From NCBI GenBank assembly GCA_027308685.1, contig DAIDEE010000006.1, positions 124,001 to 188,000 of the forward strand: a DNA stretch of 64,000 bases, given 5' to 3'. Position numbers and translations under genes: made by a program. Origin of the DNA: Acidocella sp. (lineage in GTDB: Bacteria > Pseudomonadota > Alphaproteobacteria > Acetobacterales > Acetobacteraceae). Of this stretch, positions 33,978 through 42,723 are shown piece by piece; the first letter of the stretch is position 1; each line of letters starts with the position of its first letter. Under the pieces are notes generated by a model that saw nothing but the letters and a program-made list of their open reading frames with translations, was not told where the DNA came from and ran no database searches.

Positions 33978-34583
33978 ATGGATTTAGCCCAGGTCTCCGT
34001 TTTACTGCCCATCCTGCTGCAGGTCCTCCTCATCGACCTTGTGCTGGCAGGCGATAACGCCGTGGTGATCGGCCTCGCGGTCAACGGCCTCCCGAAAGCC
34101 CAGCGCCGCCGTGCCATTTTAGCGGGTATCGCGGGGGCCACCGTTATCCGCATCCTGTTTGCCCTCGTGGCGGTTAAAATGCTGGCGATCATCGGCCTCA
34201 CCCTGGCAGGGGGCATTTTGCTGCTCTGGGTGGTTTGGAAGTCCGCTCGCGAGTTCAAACAGGCTGAAACCATCCACCACGCGCCCCCCAAGGCCGGGCG
34301 GCTGCGCGGCGCTATCACCCGCATCATCATCGCGGATGTCTCGATGAGCCTCGATAATGTGCTGGCCGTGGCCGGCGCCGCGCATGGCCACCCGGCCTTG
34401 CTGGTCATCGGTTTGATCGTCTCGGTCGCCTTAATGGGGTTTGCCGCCACCCTGGTTGCGCGATTATTGCAACGATTCCGCTGGTTGACCTGGGTTGGGC
34501 TCGCAATCGTCCTATATGTATCTGTAACCATGATCTACCAAGGCTCCTTCGAGGTCCTCCACCACGCCCTGTTGCCGGCATGA
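33978..34583 (+). CDS. TerC/YjbE family integral membrane protein
   Basis: 201 residues with about six or seven TM helices. It has the two Asp-containing repeats of the TerC fold: LIDLVLAGDNAVVIGLA (about 18-34) and IIADVSMSLDNVLAVAGAA (about 117-135). These residues bind metal in the membrane. YjbE/TerC proteins have been linked to manganese and other metal efflux, often serving metal loading of exported proteins. Its 3' end overlaps the STAS-MlaE gene by 4 bases, placing it in the same operon as an MCE lipid transporter, which is an unusual pairing. Confidence 0.9.
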   Translation: MDLAQVSVLLPILLQVLLIDLVLAGDNAVVIGLAVNGLPKAQRRRAILAGIAGATVIRILFALVAVKMLAIIGLTLAGGILLLWVVWKSAREFKQAETIHHAPPKAGRLRGAITRIIIADVSMSLDNVLAVAGAAHGHPALLVIGLIVSVALMGFAATLVARLLQRFRWLTWVGLAIVLYVSVTMIYQGSFEVLHHALLPA

Positions 34584-35680
34584 GCAATGCCGTGCTGCGT
34601 CAGGACGGCGATGTTCTGGCGTTCTCGGGCGATCTGGTGGCGAAGAATGTGGGTGGCATCTGGAAATCATCGATCGCCGCCGCCAAGCGGGCTCAGGCCG
34701 ACGTCCTCAGCGTTGATATTTCGGCTTGCCCAATGATCGACACCGCCGGTGCAACCCTGCTGCTCACAATGGAGCAGGCGCACGGCGGGGAAATGCAACT
34801 GCAAGGGGCTGAGACGCAAGGTGTGGCGCTGATTGCGCAATTGCGTAAAATTATTCCGCCACCACTTACCTCTCAGGAGGATCAACGCGCTGCCCGTGAA
34901 GCTGTGCACGAATCGCGGGCGCCGACAGCCCTGGAAAACCTTAAAATCCGGATTGCGTTTTTTGGTGAAACCATCGTTGCCCTGATGGTATTGCCAGCGA
35001 AACTGCGGTTTTTGCGTGGCTCAGACTTTGCTCACATCGCCGATAATGCGGGCCTGAAAGCCTTGCCGTTGGTGGTGATGCTGGGATTCCTGATCGGGAT
35101 GATTCTGGCCTTCCAATCTGCCATCCCGATGCAGCAATTCGGCGCCGATTTATACGTGGCGGATCTGGTGGCGCTATCTTTGTTTCGTGAGCTTGGCCCG
35201 CTGCTGGTGTCGGTGATTCTGGCTGGCCGTACCGGTTCGGCGTTCGCAGCGGAACTCGGCACCATGCAGGTGAATGAGGAAATCGCTGCCCTCACCACCA
35301 TGGGGATCGACCCTGAAACAATGCTGGTGCTGCCGCGTGTGGCCGCTGCCGTACTGGTGATGCCAGCCTTGGTGGTGGCGATGGATGTCTCGGGGCTCAT
35401 CGGCATGGGTGTGGTGCTGATGGCATTTGGGTTCCCCGCATCTGCGATCATCGGGCAGATTACGTTCGCTGCCGGGCCATCGGATTTTCTGCTGGGCCTG
35501 TGCAAGGCCATGGTCTTCGCTGCCGCCGTCGCCATGATCGGCTGCCGCTCCGGCTTGACCGCTGGCAATGGCCCACGCGCGGTGGGTGAGGCCGCCACTT
35601 CGGCGGTGGTGGGCGGCATTGTGGCCACGGTGCTGCTTGATGGTTTGTTTGCCGTGCTGTTTTACCGGTTGGGCCTGTAA
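34580..35680 (+). CDS. mlaE: STAS (MlaB-like) - MlaE fusion permease
   Basis: 366 residues against about 260 for a stand-alone MlaE. The extra N-terminal 100 residues are a STAS-type domain (VLSVDISACPMIDTAGATLLLTMEQAH), equal to MlaB, fused to the permease. The permease part has the MlaE elements LGFLIGMILAFQS, LSLFRELGPLLVSVILAGRTGSAFAAELGTMQVNEEIAAL and five or so TM helices. In E. coli MlaB regulates the ATPase MlaF and MlaE forms the channel. The start overlaps the TerC-type gene (ATGA) and the stop overlaps mlaF by 1 base. Confidence 0.93.
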   Translation: MSNAVLRQDGDVLAFSGDLVAKNVGGIWKSSIAAAKRAQADVLSVDISACPMIDTAGATLLLTMEQAHGGEMQLQGAETQGVALIAQLRKIIPPPLTSQEDQRAAREAVHESRAPTALENLKIRIAFFGETIVALMVLPAKLRFLRGSDFAHIADNAGLKALPLVVMLGFLIGMILAFQSAIPMQQFGADLYVADLVALSLFRELGPLLVSVILAGRTGSAFAAELGTMQVNEEIAALTTMGIDPETMLVLPRVAAAVLVMPALVVAMDVSGLIGMGVVLMAFGFPASAIIGQITFAAGPSDFLLGLCKAMVFAAAVAMIGCRSGLTAGNGPRAVGEAATSAVVGGIVATVLLDGLFAVLFYRLGL

Positions 35681-36414
35681 TGACCAGCATCATTCAGGTT
35701 GATGATGTTGCCCAAAGCTTCGGTGACCGGGTAATTTTTAAAAATGTCAGTTTTTCTGTGGAAGAGCGAGAAGTTTTCGTCATCCTTGGTGGCTCAGGCT
35801 GCGGTAAATCAACCCTGCTCAAACAAATGATCGGCCTGCTCCCCCCAACAGCGGGTCGTATCAATATTTGCGGTAACGATGTCGCTACTGAAACTGAAGC
35901 AGTCCGGCGCAATATTGGTGTGATGTTTCAATCAGGCGCTTTATTCGGTTCAATGAATTTGCTCGACAATGTCACATTGGCGATGGCCGTATTCACCGAC
36001 CTGCCGGCCTCAGCACGTAATGAGATTGCCCGGATGAAACTTGCGATGGTGGGGTTGGCCGATGCGGCTTTTCGCCTGCCCGCTGAAATTTCAGGCGGCA
36101 TGGCCAAACGCGCCGCCATCGCCCGCGCCCTGGCGCTCGACCCGCCGGTGTTGTTTCTCGATGAACCTTCCGCCGGATTAGACCCGATCACGTCCGCGGG
36201 CCTTGATGAGTTGATCCTCGAGTTGCGCGACACACTGGGTGCAACTTTTGTGGTAGTCACGCATGAACTGCAATCAATTCTCGCCATATCCGATCGTTGC
36301 GTGATGCTGGACCGCGAGGCCCAAGGAATGATCGCGATGGGCAAACCGCAAGACCTACAGGCCCACTCCGATGTAAAAATGGTACAGGCGTTTTTTAACC
36401 GGGAGAGTGTGTGA
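35680..36414 (+). CDS. mlaF: MlaF-type ABC transporter ATPase
   Basis: 244 residues. Walker A is GGSGCGKST (about 38-46), the signature is EISGGMAKRAAIARAL (about 132-147), a Gly-Gly variant typical of MlaF, and Walker B is VLFLDEPSAGLD. A His switch lies in VVTHELQS. It drives the MlaFEDB complex that moves phospholipids between the membranes. It overlaps the upstream gene by 1 base (TAATG), and its stop overlaps the mlaD start. Confidence 0.95.
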   Translation: MTSIIQVDDVAQSFGDRVIFKNVSFSVEEREVFVILGGSGCGKSTLLKQMIGLLPPTAGRINICGNDVATETEAVRRNIGVMFQSGALFGSMNLLDNVTLAMAVFTDLPASARNEIARMKLAMVGLADAAFRLPAEISGGMAKRAAIARALALDPPVLFLDEPSAGLDPITSAGLDELILELRDTLGATFVVVTHELQSILAISDRCVMLDREAQGMIAMGKPQDLQAHSDVKMVQAFFNRESV

Positions 36415-37406
36415 TGGATCATAAACGAGCCGCATTCCGGGTCGGGCTATTCACGCTGGCGGGCATCGCATCGCTCCTGGCGTTGGTGTTTTTTCTCTCG
36501 GGTTCAGCCTTGCATCCCGGTATTCCGTTCGAGACCTATTTTCAGGAATCCGTGCAGGGGCTGGACGTTGGTACCGAAGTGAAGTTTCGTGGTGTGACCA
36601 TCGGCAAGGTCACTGATGTCGGGTTGGTGACGGCTGAATATCCGCCAGCGAACATCAAGGATGAGAACGAAAAGGTTTATCAGCTAGTGGTTGTGCGGTT
36701 CCGTGTGGACCCGAAAAAACTTGGCCACGTCGATGATATTCAACAAGCCGTCAACCGTGGCCTGCGAGTTCAAATTGCACCGCAGGGCATTACCGGGCTG
36801 GCTTATGTGGAGTTGAGCTTTGTGAATCCGCAGCAATATCCGGTTACGCCGGTTCCATGGACACCTGATAGTACGGTCATTCCCTCAATGCCAAGCACAC
36901 TTACCCAGGTACAGGATGCGATCGAAAATCTGATGACATCATTAAGCAAGGTAGATGCTGGAAAAATTGTGACGCAGTTTAGTGATTTACTCGCATCGCT
37001 AGACCACGAGGTCACCACCGGCGATGCGCATCAGGCCATCGCCAATGCCAATATATTACTTAATAATTTGAACATTGCGGTTAGCAAGGCCGATTTACCT
37101 GCGACGTCGGCGTCCATCCGCAACTTGGCAGGTGGGCCGCAGACGACTCAAATCCTCGTACAACTCAACCAAACTACTGCACAACTCAGCAAGGTCAGCG
37201 CTGAGCTTCCTGCTTTGGTGGCGCAGAGCCAGGCCACCATCAATCAGGCTGATGAAACCACCGCCGATCTGCAAGCCTCACTTGGCCCGATTTTGCAGGA
37301 TTTGAAAACCACCACCGCCAATTTGCGTGAACTTACCGACAGCCTGAAGCACAACCCTGCGCAGGTGCTTGATGGCGCTGCCCCCCCGCCGGAAGGAGAT
37401 CACTGA
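36414..37406 (+). CDS. mlaD: MlaD/MCE domain periplasmic protein
   Basis: 330 residues from the ATG at 36414 (a GTG lies one codon earlier). An N-terminal TM anchor (GLFTLAGIASLLALVFFLSGSAL) is followed by an MCE domain with VQGLDVGTEVKFRGVTIGKVTDVGL (about residues 45-70) and RGLRVQIAPQGITGLAYVEL. The long C-terminal helical region has repeated LSKVSAELPAL and ATINQADETTADLQ segments, probably coiled-coil, which would form a tunnel or ring extension. It binds lipids in the periplasm as a hexamer. TGATG coupling links it to mlaF and to the following lipoprotein gene. Confidence 0.94.
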   Translation: MDHKRAAFRVGLFTLAGIASLLALVFFLSGSALHPGIPFETYFQESVQGLDVGTEVKFRGVTIGKVTDVGLVTAEYPPANIKDENEKVYQLVVVRFRVDPKKLGHVDDIQQAVNRGLRVQIAPQGITGLAYVELSFVNPQQYPVTPVPWTPDSTVIPSMPSTLTQVQDAIENLMTSLSKVDAGKIVTQFSDLLASLDHEVTTGDAHQAIANANILLNNLNIAVSKADLPATSASIRNLAGGPQTTQILVQLNQTTAQLSKVSAELPALVAQSQATINQADETTADLQASLGPILQDLKTTTANLRELTDSLKHNPAQVLDGAAPPPEGDH

Positions 37407-38011
37407 TGCAACGCCGCCTGATACTCACAGCAACTCTGTGGCTGGCCGGATGTGGCTCACTGTTACCAGCTCAAAAATACGTGCCGCAAGTGAACTGGCC
37501 ATTGCAGCCCGCGCCACCCATATTAAATTCGCCAAACCCGAACGGGCCGGTTCTTTTGGTGCGCGACCTTGCCGCAGGCCCTGGTCTGCAGGAGCAGGGG
37601 TTACAAACATTACGCTCTGATGGCAGTTTGGATATAGCCTATTACAACCGCTGGGCCGTGGCGCCGGCTGATGCTGCCACCGCCGCCTTGACCGCTTGGG
37701 CTGAGGCGAGTGGCATATTTTCGGCCGTGGTGAACACCGGCACACGTTTAACCCCGAAGTTGATTGTTGAAGGCGAATTCACGGAGTTTGTTGCCGACCT
37801 CGCAAACGGTCAGGCGCGGGCCGTGTTAACGTTGGTGGTCATAGCCAATAGTGACAGCCTCATCGCGAAGTCCCGCCCGCTCACGCAGCAACGCATCATC
37901 GGCACAGCACCACTGCACGGTACTGATGCGCCAGCGGAGGTTATGGCACTGCAGGCAGCATTGGCAAATGCCCTTACCCAGGCTGTGGGCTTGCTGACGC
38001 GGTTGGCTTGA
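37406..38011 (+). CDS. ABC-type transport auxiliary lipoprotein (PqiC/YmbA-type)
   Basis: 201 residues. The lipobox LAGC puts the lipidated Cys at about residue 16. The mature part matches PF03886-type proteins (LLVRDLAAGPGLQEQGLQTLRSDGSLDIAYYNRWAVAPADAATAALTAWAEASGIFSAVV). These outer-membrane lipoproteins partner MCE systems; PqiC works with PqiAB. It overlaps mlaD by 1 base. No mlaC (periplasmic shuttle) is present here, so the lipoprotein may be the outer-membrane side of this MCE transporter. The stop is 17 bases from the stop of the facing small gene. Confidence 0.85.
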   Translation: MQRRLILTATLWLAGCGSLLPAQKYVPQVNWPLQPAPPILNSPNPNGPVLLVRDLAAGPGLQEQGLQTLRSDGSLDIAYYNRWAVAPADAATAALTAWAEASGIFSAVVNTGTRLTPKLIVEGEFTEFVADLANGQARAVLTLVVIANSDSLIAKSRPLTQQRIIGTAPLHGTDAPAEVMALQAALANALTQAVGLLTRLA

Positions 38012-38028: not shown

Positions 38029-38196
38029 CTACCGCCGCGCGAGATACGCGGCACCGCTCAGCAGGCTGACCGGCAACACCGCGCCCGCCAGAATCGCTGC
38101 CGGTGTGTGCAACAAGGCCCCCGCTACAAAAATGCAAATCCCCGCAACACCTAGCGTGTATTTGTCACCGAACAATGTTTTGATAAAACCCTGCAT
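38029..38196 (-). CDS. Small two-helix membrane protein (55 aa)
   Basis: 55 residues, found by reading the minus strand. It begins MQGFIKTLFGDKYTLGVAG and ends LSGAAYLARR. Two hydrophobic segments (about 14-30 and 35-51) are joined by HTP. The ATG overlaps the stop of the FTR1-like gene in a TAATG junction, so it is translationally coupled to the ABC operon. It has no signal-peptide cleavage site and no recognised family. It could stabilise or regulate the membrane parts of the transporter; this is inference from position and size. Its coding nature rests on the overlap and composition. Confidence 0.7.
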   Translation of the reverse strand: MQGFIKTLFGDKYTLGVAGICIFVAGALLHTPAAILAGAVLPVSLLSGAAYLARR

Positions 38197-38912
38197 TATG
38201 CCACTCCCGATGCGGCAGATTTAAAACTATAGAGCCGGATAAGCGCGAGGCCTCCAAGCACGTAAAACCCGAATAACACCAGTAAGGTAGCATCCCCGAG
38301 CGGCCATTTATAGCCGAGTGATTCTAATATCCAAAACGTACCAAAGCTCAAAATACCCGAACCTACAGTAAATTTAATGGTATTTTCAGGAACTTTCGCA
38401 AGTGGTTTGCGTGCCAGTATGCCTGCGACGCACACCACGATCAAAGCAACCGCAGCGGCAGCGGAGGCCGCCAGCGTATGATGTGTTTGCACGCCCAATG
38501 CCACCACGATCAGCCAAACCTCAAGCCCTTCAAGGAGCGTTCCATTGAACGCAATCCACCAGGCAGCGCGCGCCTCATGAATATCGGCACGAGCACGTAA
38601 CCCCGCAAATTCGGCATCTTCATCATGGAGTTTTTTCAATCCGGCGCCACGGGCAATGGCTTTGCCTAACCAGCGAACACCGAACAAGGTGAGAAATACC
38701 CCGATAATAAACTGCAAGATTGTAAGGTCGTGAATCATGGTGAGGATCAAGCTGCCAATGGTGGTCAGTACCGCAAGAAACAGCAACGCTGAGCCAGCTG
38801 CCCCCAATGCTCGCGGCCAGCCAATGGAGAGTGCCACGGCAAGCACGATCGTATAAGCCTCCACCCATTCAACGGTAGCGGTTAGATAAGTTGCAATCAG
38901 GGCGCCCATCAT
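38196..38912 (-). CDS. COG4280-like membrane protein resembling FTR1 iron permease
   Basis: 238 residues with about seven TM helices. Two ExxE motifs lie in membrane segments, TVEWVEAY (E15/E18) and LLEGLEVW (E128/E131). They resemble the paired REGLE motifs with which FTR1/EfeU permeases bind ferric iron, although the leading Arg is not present at either. A cytoplasmic-looking acidic/His loop (LHDEDAEFAGLRARADIHEARAAW) sits between. It overlaps the ABC ATPase gene by ATGA and the 55-aa gene by 1 base. Metal transport is inferred; another substrate is possible. It reads as a member of predicted membrane protein group COG4280. Confidence 0.75.
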   Translation of the reverse strand: MMGALIATYLTATVEWVEAYTIVLAVALSIGWPRALGAAGSALLFLAVLTTIGSLILTMIHDLTILQFIIGVFLTLFGVRWLGKAIARGAGLKKLHDEDAEFAGLRARADIHEARAAWWIAFNGTLLEGLEVWLIVVALGVQTHHTLAASAAAAVALIVVCVAGILARKPLAKVPENTIKFTVGSGILSFGTFWILESLGYKWPLGDATLLVLFGFYVLGGLALIRLYSFKSAASGVA

Positions 38913-39967
38913 GGGTTTTTGTCTCCAGTTTCAGGAAATAAAAATAACTTGTCGGGGTTGATATTAATATAGCCAGGGCCGGTTGGTACCACGTCTGGCT
39001 CAAAGCTGACCAGCGGACGGGGCACACCGGCCACTAGCCAACGTACCCTGAAACGGCCAGCATCGAAATGTACTGACATGGCTTCAGCAGGAATACCAAT
39101 GTTATTTGGGGCGCGCTGGATCCCGCCCTCACGCCAAAATAAGCGGACACGCGGGCTGAGGATGTTACGGTCAACGGGGATGAGCGTCCCGGCGATATCC
39201 AGGAATTTGTCGGCAGCAATCGTGGTGACCGCTATGGACACGCCGCCGGCAGCCCCGGTGAAGCGCGCGATGTAGGCCGAGGCAGGCGTGCGCCATAAAT
39301 CCTGCGGTGCGCCTTGCTGGCGAATAGTTCCGTGTTCCAGCACGGCCACATGGTCGGCCATATGCCAGCAGTCTTCTGGATCATGGCTGACCAGCAGTGC
39401 TGAAATTCCAGCATCGCGGACGGTTTCCAGCAGTTCCTCACGCAATTTGTCGCGGGTTTCCATATCGAGGCTGGAAAGTGGTTCATCAAGCAACAGCAAA
39501 TTTGGTTTGGCGGCAAGCGCACGAGCGATGCCGACCCGCTGTTGCTGTCCACCCGAGAGCAACGCCGGGCGGCGTTGCGCAAATGAGGCAACACCCAAGC
39601 GGTCAAGCAAGGCCATGGCGGTTTTATCGCGGTTTCCTACATCGGCGGGTACGGCCAGCGCCACATTTTCCAGGCAGCTTAAATGTGGCCACAACGCAAA
39701 TTCCTGAAATACCATGCCCAACCGGCGCTTCTCGGAGGGAATGAAAATGGCTCTCGAATCATCAACCAGGTTTCCCTGAATTTTAATCGTTCCGCTGTCC
39801 GCGCGATCAAGCCCGGCGGCCATCCGCAGCAGAGTGGTTTTGCCTGAACCAGACTCACCTGCGAGCACAAGAAATTGTCCCTGTTTGAGTTGCAGGGAAA
39901 TATTTTTAAGCACCATCCGGCCACCAAGTTTGCGGCTTGCGTCGGCAATGTCGAGGCTCGGGATCAT
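38909..39967 (-). CDS. ABC transporter ATPase, ferric iron/AEP type
   Basis: 352 residues. Walker A is GESGSGKTT (about 37-45), the signature is LSGGQQQRVGIARAL (about 138-152), Walker B is LLLLDEPLSSLD and the switch His is in SHDPED. The C-terminal 110 residues carry a TOBE-type regulatory domain. This is the FbpC/PotA/PhnT group (iron, polyamine, sulfate or aminoethylphosphonate importers). It overlaps the permease gene by 4 bases upstream and the FTR1-like gene by 4 bases downstream. Confidence 0.9.
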   Translation of the reverse strand: MIPSLDIADASRKLGGRMVLKNISLQLKQGQFLVLAGESGSGKTTLLRMAAGLDRADSGTIKIQGNLVDDSRAIFIPSEKRRLGMVFQEFALWPHLSCLENVALAVPADVGNRDKTAMALLDRLGVASFAQRRPALLSGGQQQRVGIARALAAKPNLLLLDEPLSSLDMETRDKLREELLETVRDAGISALLVSHDPEDCWHMADHVAVLEHGTIRQQGAPQDLWRTPASAYIARFTGAAGGVSIAVTTIAADKFLDIAGTLIPVDRNILSPRVRLFWREGGIQRAPNNIGIPAEAMSVHFDAGRFRVRWLVAGVPRPLVSFEPDVVPTGPGYININPDKLFLFPETGDKNP

Positions 39968-41514
39968 GGCGTTACGGCATGTTCGGTGTGCGGGCGAGTC
40001 AATAAATGCACGAGACCTGCAAGGCCCAAAGCCAGTGCGCCCAAACTAACCATACCAAGCAACGCCATCCGGGCGGCATCGCTGTAATGTGCCATCATGT
40101 CATCGGAGACGATAGCAACACCCAAAGGCATTGCGCCTGGAACATACAGAAGTTCTGAAATCGGCAACTCATACATCACGCCGGCGACCACCAGCAGCCA
40201 CGCATATAGCCCCGGTTTGGCAAGCAGGGTGGCCTGAATATCGATGAGCCGCGTGACCTGGGGTAAGGCGAAAATGCGGGCTGCTTCATCCAGTTTAGGA
40301 TCAAGCTGCGCGATAGCCGTGCCCATAAGCCGGATGGCAATAGGTAGGGCTCCCGCTGCATAAGCAATAACCAACAGGAGCACGGTGCCGTACAGCGGTA
40401 GATATTGGTTGTTGAACGCAATCACGTAGCCTGCCCCCAATATCAAGCCTGGAACCGCCATATTGGCCGAAAGGAGGCCTTGCAAAATGGCCGGGAACCA
40501 GATGCTACGTCCGGCTTGCAGTTTGAGGACGATAACCCCCACCGCGAGCGCGACGCTGGCGGCAAGCATACCGTATCCCAGAGATCTTAGGACGGCGTTG
40601 TATGAATCGATCCCCGGACCATCGCTGGTCATGGCGATGGAAACTAACGCCAGCATCGGTGCGGCCACGCCGAAGCCCCAGAGCAACGTGGCGCTTGCTG
40701 TAAAAACTAAATTTTCAATACGAGTGCACGGCCTTGGTGCGTTGCGGCGCGCCCGCCCCTGGGTCAAGGCCGCCTGGTGGCGTGCCTGCACGCTGAGTTG
40801 TATAACAGCCAACAGTCCTGCTGTGAGTATAAGCCACCAGCATAGTGCGGCGGCCCCTGCAAAATCGGTAGGTGTGGTATTGAGCCGCTGATATATAGCA
40901 TAGGTAATAACAGGAAATTTGGCAGTGATGCCCAATGTAGCGGGAATTCCGAATTCCTGCATCGTCTCAATCGCCGCGATGGTAAACGAGGCCGCCATCG
41001 CTGGAAGGGCTAAACGCAGCGTCAACCAGCGCCGACGCCAAACACTCACGCCGAGCACCAATGCCGCCTCCATCAACGACGAACTGCTTTGTGCAAACGT
41101 AGCCCTGGCCACAAAGGTCGCAAACGGAATTGACTTCAGACAATATAAAAATATCAAACCGGCAGGACCGAGAAAAGCATGGCCAAAAAAGCCATTACGG
41201 GCGAGCGGATTGGTAAAAATAACGAGCCAACCGGTGGTGAGCACATATCCGGGCGAGAGAAACAGCACCCATAGCACCAAGCCTAATGCCCGAACCACGT
41301 TACCCCGCAAGGTTTCCAGCGCATGGGCAAACAAGGCCCCCAACGGGGCGACAATCAGGCCAACAAGTAATGCCATCGCAAGTGAATCGAGGTAAGCACG
41401 GGGGTCTGCCGTGGCTGCCATATGGACAAAAAATGGCAGGCTCAACAGCCGAGCCAGCGGATACACAAACAGTAACGCCAGCAGGCCCAACAGCAGGCCG
41501 CGCAAAATACTCAT
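39964..41514 (-). CDS. ABC transporter permease, fused two-domain (FbpB-type)
   Basis: 516 residues with two permease halves of about six TM helices each, as in FbpB/ThiP-type fused permeases. Each half has an EAA-like loop (SLMEAALVLGVSVWRRRWLTLRLALPAM near residue 145, and LDEAARIFALPQVTRLIDIQATLLAKPGL near 420). It forms the membrane channel for a periplasmic-binding-protein importer. The strong Thr/Gly-rich second half begins near residue 290. It overlaps both the binding-protein and ATPase genes by 4 bases (ATGA), so the three are a unit. Confidence 0.9.
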   Translation of the reverse strand: MSILRGLLLGLLALLFVYPLARLLSLPFFVHMAATADPRAYLDSLAMALLVGLIVAPLGALFAHALETLRGNVVRALGLVLWVLFLSPGYVLTTGWLVIFTNPLARNGFFGHAFLGPAGLIFLYCLKSIPFATFVARATFAQSSSSLMEAALVLGVSVWRRRWLTLRLALPAMAASFTIAAIETMQEFGIPATLGITAKFPVITYAIYQRLNTTPTDFAGAAALCWWLILTAGLLAVIQLSVQARHQAALTQGRARRNAPRPCTRIENLVFTASATLLWGFGVAAPMLALVSIAMTSDGPGIDSYNAVLRSLGYGMLAASVALAVGVIVLKLQAGRSIWFPAILQGLLSANMAVPGLILGAGYVIAFNNQYLPLYGTVLLLVIAYAAGALPIAIRLMGTAIAQLDPKLDEAARIFALPQVTRLIDIQATLLAKPGLYAWLLVVAGVMYELPISELLYVPGAMPLGVAIVSDDMMAHYSDAARMALLGMVSLGALALGLAGLVHLLTRPHTEHAVTP

Positions 41515-42527
41515 GCGCCTGTCATGGCTTTCGCAAACCAGGTGTTGATGGCATTTTCAAGCGTACCCCATTGCACCGGGTCGAGCGTCATGCTGGTGAT
41601 GCTATCAAGGGCTGGCATAGCAGGCAGCGGTGCCGGGCCATCGGTCGTGATCGGCCAGTAGTCACCGTCGGCCTCACCTTGCGTCTGCCGGAGCCTTTGG
41701 ATGTCTGGGCGCATGACAAACGCGAGGAACTTGGCAGCCTCTGCTTGTTTATGGCTGTTTAAACCGGCGGCTTCCACTATCACGTTGGGTAAAACAAAGG
41801 CAGGGTTGGGAATCATAATTTTCAGGTCCGGGTGCGAACCCGCAAAATAAATCGCGGCTGAAGACTGCACGATTGCAATGCCGATGGCTTGCGATTGCAG
41901 TGCCGCTAAAGTGGCATCGTTTTTAGCAAACATGTGCAACCCATTGGCTTTTAGCGCCTCTACATAGTCTTGCCCCTTCGGCCAGCCCCCGGCATTGTTC
42001 AACATGCCGGCCAGCATGGGGAAGGTTGGTCCGGAGATCGACGGATCGTTGATGCCGATCAGCCCTTGATACGCAGGATTGGTCAGATCATTCCAGGTTG
42101 CTGGCGGAGTATTAACCCGCTTTGGGTCATAGATGTAAACGCCCGCCAGGGTCATTCCCGTCGGCACATAAGCACCCTGCTGGCTCAACAAGGTTTTGCC
42201 CGTTGCGGTCAGGTTAGCGGGGGCGGGAAGATCATGCGCGAGCAGTCCTGCCTGGTCCAATGACACCGCAGCGGTCGCGCCATCGAACCATGCGAGGTCC
42301 CATGCCGGATGAGTCCCCTGCGAGGCGATGCGTGCCATGAGGCTGCCGGTTGAGAGGCGAACCACCGCTATTTTGATGCCGGTTTCCTTGGTGAAGGCAT
42401 CGGCGACGGCAGGACCGTAATCGAGTCCTGAATATAAAACGAGCCCGGTATCAGGGCTGGGCCACATCAAAACCACGCCGATAATTACTATAATCGTCGT
42501 CACAATACCCGCGAACAGCTTCCGCAT
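41511..42527 (-). CDS. ABC transporter periplasmic solute-binding protein (COG1840-like)
   Basis: 338 residues from the ATG at 42527 (AGGTGGGA upstream; an earlier start lacks support). The N-terminus (KLFAGIVTTIIVIIGVVLMW) is hydrophobic without a clear cleavage site, so it may stay membrane-anchored. The body has the class II binding-protein pattern GLVLYSGLDYGPAVADAFTKETGIKI and WDLAWFDGATAAV, like FbpA/FutA and aminoethylphosphonate binders. I do not see the adjacent Tyr pair that holds iron in FbpA, so the ligand is open. It is the first gene of the operon. Confidence 0.85.
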   Translation of the reverse strand: MRKLFAGIVTTIIVIIGVVLMWPSPDTGLVLYSGLDYGPAVADAFTKETGIKIAVVRLSTGSLMARIASQGTHPAWDLAWFDGATAAVSLDQAGLLAHDLPAPANLTATGKTLLSQQGAYVPTGMTLAGVYIYDPKRVNTPPATWNDLTNPAYQGLIGINDPSISGPTFPMLAGMLNNAGGWPKGQDYVEALKANGLHMFAKNDATLAALQSQAIGIAIVQSSAAIYFAGSHPDLKIMIPNPAFVLPNVIVEAAGLNSHKQAEAAKFLAFVMRPDIQRLRQTQGEADGDYWPITTDGPAPLPAMPALDSITSMTLDPVQWGTLENAINTWFAKAMTGA

Positions 42528-42723
42528 GATTCCCACCTGACCTCGTTCTTGGGCGGCATAGGCAGAGAACGCTGGCCGTGCAATCAACCAAGCATCAACG
42601 TTTTACAAACTTCATTGAAGATTCCTCGAAAATTCATAAAACTGTCAAATTTCAATAAATGTGGTGACAAACCTCTAAGACAGCTAATCATGCAACCGCG
42701 ATACGGCGTTACCTGATGAAAGG

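Follow-up and report, generated by a model that had tools for sequence, protein, structure and literature searches.

Why should the genes of a ferric-type ATP-binding cassette (ABC) importer share an operon with those of a seven-helix membrane protein of the COG4280 group and a two-helix protein of only 55 amino acids? The operon lies in a 64,000-nucleotide stretch of Acidocella sp. DNA (the window; GenBank assembly GCA_027308685.1, contig DAIDEE010000006.1, positions 124,001 to 188,000), and our answer, to which we give a probability of roughly 0.4, is that its products form the inner-membrane stage of a pathway taking up an organic ligand that is anionic and probably bound to metal, with COG4280 and the small protein moving the metal, most likely outward. 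What is seen directly is the gene content of the operon, its kept order, the constant pairing of the small gene with COG4280, a TonB-dependent receptor with ExbB and ExbD elsewhere in the genome, and FetA-FetB genes within the operons of relatives. The features concerned are as follows.

42528-42723, minus strand: intergenic region, the expected site of the operon promoter
42527-41511, minus strand: solute-binding protein (SBP), 338 amino acids, membrane-anchored; Pfam SBP_bac_8/6/11; structural class ferric / aminoethylphosphonate / hexose-phosphate
41514-39964, minus strand: fused two-module ABC permease, 516 amino acids; Pfam BPD_transp_1
39967-38909, minus strand: ABC importer ATPase, 352 amino acids; Pfam ABC_tran
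38912-38196, minus strand: COG4280 / OFeT_1 seven-helix membrane protein, 238 amino acids; proposed metal carrier
38196-38029, minus strand: two-helix small protein, the partner of COG4280, 55 amino acids

All five genes are present as open reading frames (ORFs) running from 42527 to 38029, with junctions that read ATGA, ATGA, ATGA and TAATG from 5' to 3' along the operon, which bears out the overlapping five-gene layout described in an earlier note on this DNA. That note had also raised the prospect of Fur sites upstream of 42527, and here the outcome was negative, the best Fur-like match in the intergenic region having 11 of 19 positions, no better than shuffled sequences. A promoter scan of 42528-42723, itself uninformative, gave no sigma-70-type match on the operon strand.

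Recurrence of the operon and of the COG4280 pair

The five-gene architecture is no local oddity. The order SBP-permease-ATPase-COG4280-small gene, on one strand, occurs at 43 of 156 collected COG4280 loci and at 30 of the 80 best genome matches, counts that are not population frequencies because the locus sets were picked by similarity. It is seen in Acidocella and Acidiphilium, in Burkholderiales/Thiomonas and Gammaproteobacteria, with ABC proteins 32-51% identical to those of the window, and in Rhizobiales, where the identities are 26-44%; in Dictyobacter kobayashii (Chloroflexota) the ABC genes adjoin COG4280 divergently. COG4280 itself was found in 62 of the 395 genomes searched in the order and in only 10 of 398 drawn from the phylum, and neighbourhood scoring, in which ORFs at high-GC loci were chosen guided by homology, shows the five-gene order kept in the genus of the window and in two others. 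Scanning named genomes with a COG4280 profile built from 34 sequences gave 80 loci, the nearest named records belonging to Acidocella and Acidiphilium. The linkage to an importer of the COG1840/FbpB/FbpC type that the earlier note had looked for is thus conserved in several classes. On a 117-protein COG4280 tree built by a quick method, the ABC label requires 16 changes versus about 30 with shuffled labels, and ABC-linked members fall in both main clades. The same note had taken COG4280 homologues occurring mostly without ABC genes as evidence against the link, and numerically they do so (113 of the 156 loci are without the full ABC set, Bacillota and Actinomycetota among them), but the link is not thereby refuted, since the association persists between distantly related bacteria.

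The small protein goes with COG4280 and not with the importer, as it trails COG4280 almost everywhere. A hydrophobic ORF of 45-90 amino acids starts at the end of COG4280 at 120 of 143 loci, compared with 20 of 690 control ORFs, and 111 of these begin between -5 and +3 bases from that end; small ORFs likewise lie downstream in Alicyclobacillus, Paenibacillus, Actinomycetota and Chloroflexota, and the pair occurs in at least six phyla. The partner, 55-75 amino acids long among COG4280 relatives, carries LFGD or LFVDDG in its N-terminal segment, a nearly invariant Asp11 and two hydrophobic stretches; the protein of the window has zero Pfam matches, and within its clade the gene is under purifying selection (ratio of nonsynonymous to synonymous polymorphism, pN/pS, 0.21-0.41). 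The genus also has a distantly related second COG4280 paralogue (L066, L068, L075, L079, L096), which lacks the small gene and lies among other genes, themselves conserved.

The COG4280 protein of the window matches OFeT_1 (PF16955) with an E-value of 1.5e-7 (31.8 bits, cut-off 26.9), a family that 33 of 34 relatives match too, and it has no match to FTR1 (PF03239), to which 5 of the 34 match weakly (best E 6e-5). Across 69 relatives E15, E18, E98, E128, E131 and E176 are invariant; helix 1 holds the motif E15xxE18, helix 4 the motif E128GxE131. In the AlphaFold2 model (pLDDT 89.5) the chain forms seven membrane helices, E15/E18 and E128/E131 falling midway along helices 1 and 4, in agreement with the seven helices and two membrane ExxE motifs proposed before, and the concentration of Arg and Lys in loops 1, 3 and 5 and at the C terminus predicts an N-out, C-in topology, which is that of FTR1. 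Profile comparison relates COG4280 both to FTR1 (E 2e-4, aligned at the REGxE site of helix 4) and to GDT1 (PF01169; E 4e-5). Whereas at matching positions the true FTR1 proteins of this order show motifs of the types FREV.EA and LREG.EV, the two arginines are replaced in the 69 COG4280 sequences, by an invariant V14 and by L127 in at least 90%. The earlier term "FTR1-like permease" therefore goes too far, although the FTR1-like placing of the glutamate pairs in the membrane core holds in the model. COG4280 also differs from FTR1/EfeU in its constant partner and in that no ferroxidase, EfeO or EfeB was recognised among its recurrent neighbours, and from GDT1/TMEM165, a name that public records often give to COG4280 proteins where they do not call them hypothetical, in that the E-x-G-D-[KR]-[ST] motif is absent from the COG4280 alignments. 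With its profile matches and the OFeT_1 hit above cut-off, COG4280 is, judged from sequence, a separate branch of the LysE/FTR1/GDT1 superfamily, a predicted sister and not a member of FTR1 or GDT1. Its sequence has zero matches in the PDB, and in a PDB fold search with the model the best E-value was 0.48 and every VIA Z was below 8, in lists that held no FTR1-type chain.

The importer and its ligand

The SBP model (pLDDT 93.5) matches the folds of AfuA, which binds hexose phosphate (VIA Z 32.5), the iron-binding HitA (32.1), P5PA, which binds pyridoxal phosphate (31.8), and FbpA (31.3), with a lower match to the metal-citrate binder MctA (27.5). Residues T60, S165, G166, Q221 and S223 are conserved in the SBP family. 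The tyrosine pair of the ferric binders is absent, Tyr195 and Tyr196 of FbpA aligning with Ser223 and Ala224, and the earlier observation that no obvious pair is present stands. T60, S165 and G166 of the SBP correspond to phosphate contacts described for P5PA (PMC8427247), but the Thr of the phosphate-site SGT is replaced by P167. The ring-binding His of P5PA (H203) is replaced by Q221, and the AfuA trio His205-Asp206-Glu229 is absent from the family, which has at the His position a conserved motif of its own, Q221-S/D-S. An anionic ligand would be the best fit to these residues. The class of ligand, which the earlier note had left unfixed, appears as a tie in the fold comparison among phosphorylated compounds, ferric iron and metal-citrate.

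FbpABC, HitABC and SfuABC, ferric importers of the COG1840 class that go with TonB receptors, for example in Neisseria, share with the operon the SBP fold (VIA Z 31-32), a fused FbpB-like permease, the ATPase and, in relatives of the operon, a TonB receptor in front, but the operon differs from them in the missing tyrosine pair, the extra COG4280/small or FetAB module, the RpiR genes and the lack of a Fur-like site. AfuABC and P5PAB share the fold and the partly kept anion site, but the ring-binding residues and the SGT Thr are lost from our SBP and the extra modules are again its own. The nearest NCBIfam models of all three ABC proteins are those of the aminoethylphosphonate set PhnS2, PhnU2 and PhnT2, but with scores far below the curated equivalog cut-offs (56.6 against 392.8 bits, 84.2 against 593.3 and 238.5 against 457.7, respectively), and no phosphonate catabolism genes were recognised among the recurrent neighbours.

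In many relatives a TonB receptor, ExbB, ExbD and TonB, along with an RpiR regulator, precede the SBP and thereby extend the operon, with the receptor at 19 loci and ExbB at 14 within the available flanks, which often end at contig ends. In the genome of the window, receptor (57% identical), ExbB (69%) and ExbD (84%) genes, orthologues of those in the operons of relatives, lie together near the end of another contig (G000:C6:48566-52192, L264); this genome has receptor, energisers and importer, divided between two loci.

FetAB and the fate of the metal

A search with the SBP recovered the same importer without COG4280 in one congener, L248, as well as in members of two different genera of the family, L251-L256. 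FetA-FetB is present at all seven loci, behind the ATPase at six of them and upstream of the receptor in L248, and the order-wide search gave no COG4280 match in the seven genomes; no FetB was found in the genome of the window. The FetA-FetB genes were identified by UPF0014 (E 1e-69 to 3e-73), with "iron efflux" as the best NCBIfam model, and FetAB (YbbL-YbbM) is an ABC transporter, non-homologous with COG4280, that takes a place in the same operon. On the binding-protein tree, where the label "other" on L219-L224, L227 and L228 denotes short copies of COG4280 loci, FetAB-linked SBPs are nested among COG4280-linked ones, for which reason a change of partner appears the simpler reading. A single origin of the linked importers is moderately supported (89), and only so because the tree holds few generic binding proteins. 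A strict mutual exclusion of FetAB and COG4280 was considered and dropped, as two congeners (L046/L266 and L047/L267) carry both, with RpiR divergent from FetA-FetB-receptor-ExbB-ExbD-TonB-SBP-permease-ATPase-COG4280-small.

We suggest that a TonB-dependent receptor would take the ligand through the outer membrane and that the SBP and the fused-permease ABC importer would bring it into the cytoplasm, while COG4280 and its two-helix partner would form a metal carrier in its own right, a LysE/FTR1/GDT1 superfamily member whose four membrane glutamates may move the accompanying metal, most likely outward; the cell would thereby retain the ligand and escape metal overload. We infer the substrate class, the involvement of a metal and the direction of transport: the superfamily and the acidic core suggest a cation, the company of neighbouring genes suggests a metal load, and the fact that an annotated iron exporter can take the place of the pair, or stand alongside it, points to disposal of ligand-borne metal. 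Disposal of metal is likelier than the second entry route that the earlier note had entertained, because FetAB lies in the same operon of relatives and stand-alone pairs lie beside metal-resistance genes, some on plasmids adjoining CzcA-type RND efflux, DmeF, CrcB or ChrB genes. Stated more broadly, as a new transport logic in which a TonB/ABC system imports a metal-bound ligand, COG4280 with an obligate partner of 55-75 amino acids expels the metal and FetAB is an independent solution, the proposal is more tentative and, in our estimate, somewhat unlikely to hold in full.

Several points weigh against outward movement of a ligand-borne metal. The COG4280 motif is closest to that of FTR1, an importer, many COG4280 loci are without any importer, and the tie over ligand class and the joint presence of FetAB and COG4280 in two operons, where they are not strict substitutes, count in the same direction. 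That FetAB exports iron is known from overexpression (Nicolaou 2013, to which PMC4902296 and PMC6338753 refer) and, according to PMC4902296, not from a transport assay. In Acidiphilium (L056-L059, L108, L112, L113) the permease and ATPase are gone and the SBP directly precedes COG4280 and the small gene, which looks like an SBP feeding COG4280. Finally, regulators of the sugar-phosphate-sensing RpiR family adjoin COG4280 at 28 loci, those without ABC genes included, which hints at a metabolic and not a metal signal.

The Acidiphilium loci speak for the chief alternative, in which COG4280 and the small protein form a second, FTR1-like entry and the SBP or receptor hands ferric iron both to the ABC importer and to COG4280. 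The four membrane glutamates, the predicted FTR1-like topology, the profile match at the REGxE site and the OFeT_1 score are all consistent with it, but the REGxE arginines are replaced throughout the aligned family, no ferroxidase, EfeO or EfeB gene was recognised among the recurrent neighbours, the SBP is without the tyrosine pair, the operon is without a Fur-like site, and annotated iron exporters in the operon of relatives and efflux genes near stand-alone pairs point the other way, so that we regard this entry route as unlikely. We find it harder still to favour a non-metal cargo, such as an organic phosphate or acid from metabolism of the ligand, under an RpiR regulator. The RpiR genes, PAP2 phosphatases at 4 COG4280 loci, MCE/PqiC genes at 8 and the tie of the SBP fold with hexose-phosphate and pyridoxal phosphate binders would fit such a cargo, as would the link of the plant UPF0014 proteins (ALS3/STAR) to UDP-glucose; against these, the nearest kin of COG4280 in the superfamily, FTR1 and GDT1, transport cations of metals, and the invariant acidic membrane residues suit a cation, as do the metal-resistance neighbourhoods. 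The earlier suggestion that the pair modifies or gates the ABC importer fares worst and is very improbable: translational coupling and the conserved place directly behind the ATPase are what a subunit would show, but the 113 loci without a full ABC set and the occurrence of the importer without COG4280 in the seven FetAB-bearing genomes argue against it. The pair occurs widely without any ABC genes and for this reason counts as an independent functional unit and not as a subunit of the importer.

The earlier interpretation is thus partly supported as a whole, including its remark that no system of this composition had been described: in the literature searched, a part of the whole, we found neither a mention of COG4280 nor a description of the combination of these parts. 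A 2008 comparison of acidophiles (PMC2631029) proposes that TonB iron uptake is linked with the metabolism of citrate or phosphate, and its passages concerned do not describe the five-gene operon. The recurrence of the operon and the exchange for FetAB lead to a concrete hypothesis on what the COG4280 pair does and tie FetAB to a defined importer; they also show that among operons that would be annotated as ferric or aminoethylphosphonate transporters there is a distinct uptake system, which is prominent in habitats that are acid and rich in metals.

Other neighbours of COG4280

ChrB-type genes lie at 10 COG4280 loci. Loci with ChrB-like genes (ChrB_N, PF20229) next to COG4280 (L139, L141, L142, L153, L156, L157, L173, L036, L037) span Chloroflexota, Bacillota, Dormibacterota and Alphaproteobacteria, and the stand-alone pair may have a role related to chromate or an oxyanion. 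DUF347 membrane proteins occur at 12 loci, and DUF347-repeat (COG4705-like) proteins are found near COG4280 at L032, L037, L069, L087, L145, L150, L163, L167 and L168, some DUF347-bearing loci having two-component systems as well. In the window, an MCE-type transport operon (MlaE-like, MlaF-like, MlaD/MCE and a PqiC-like lipoprotein; 34580-38011, plus strand) converges on the small gene across a gap of about 18 bases. The MCE/PqiC genes were considered as part of the system and rejected, because they are convergent in the window and present at only 8 of the 156 loci. At the Rhodopila-type loci L060, L062 and L063, where the ABC genes are absent, MCE/PqiC genes lie directly 5' of COG4280 on the same strand.

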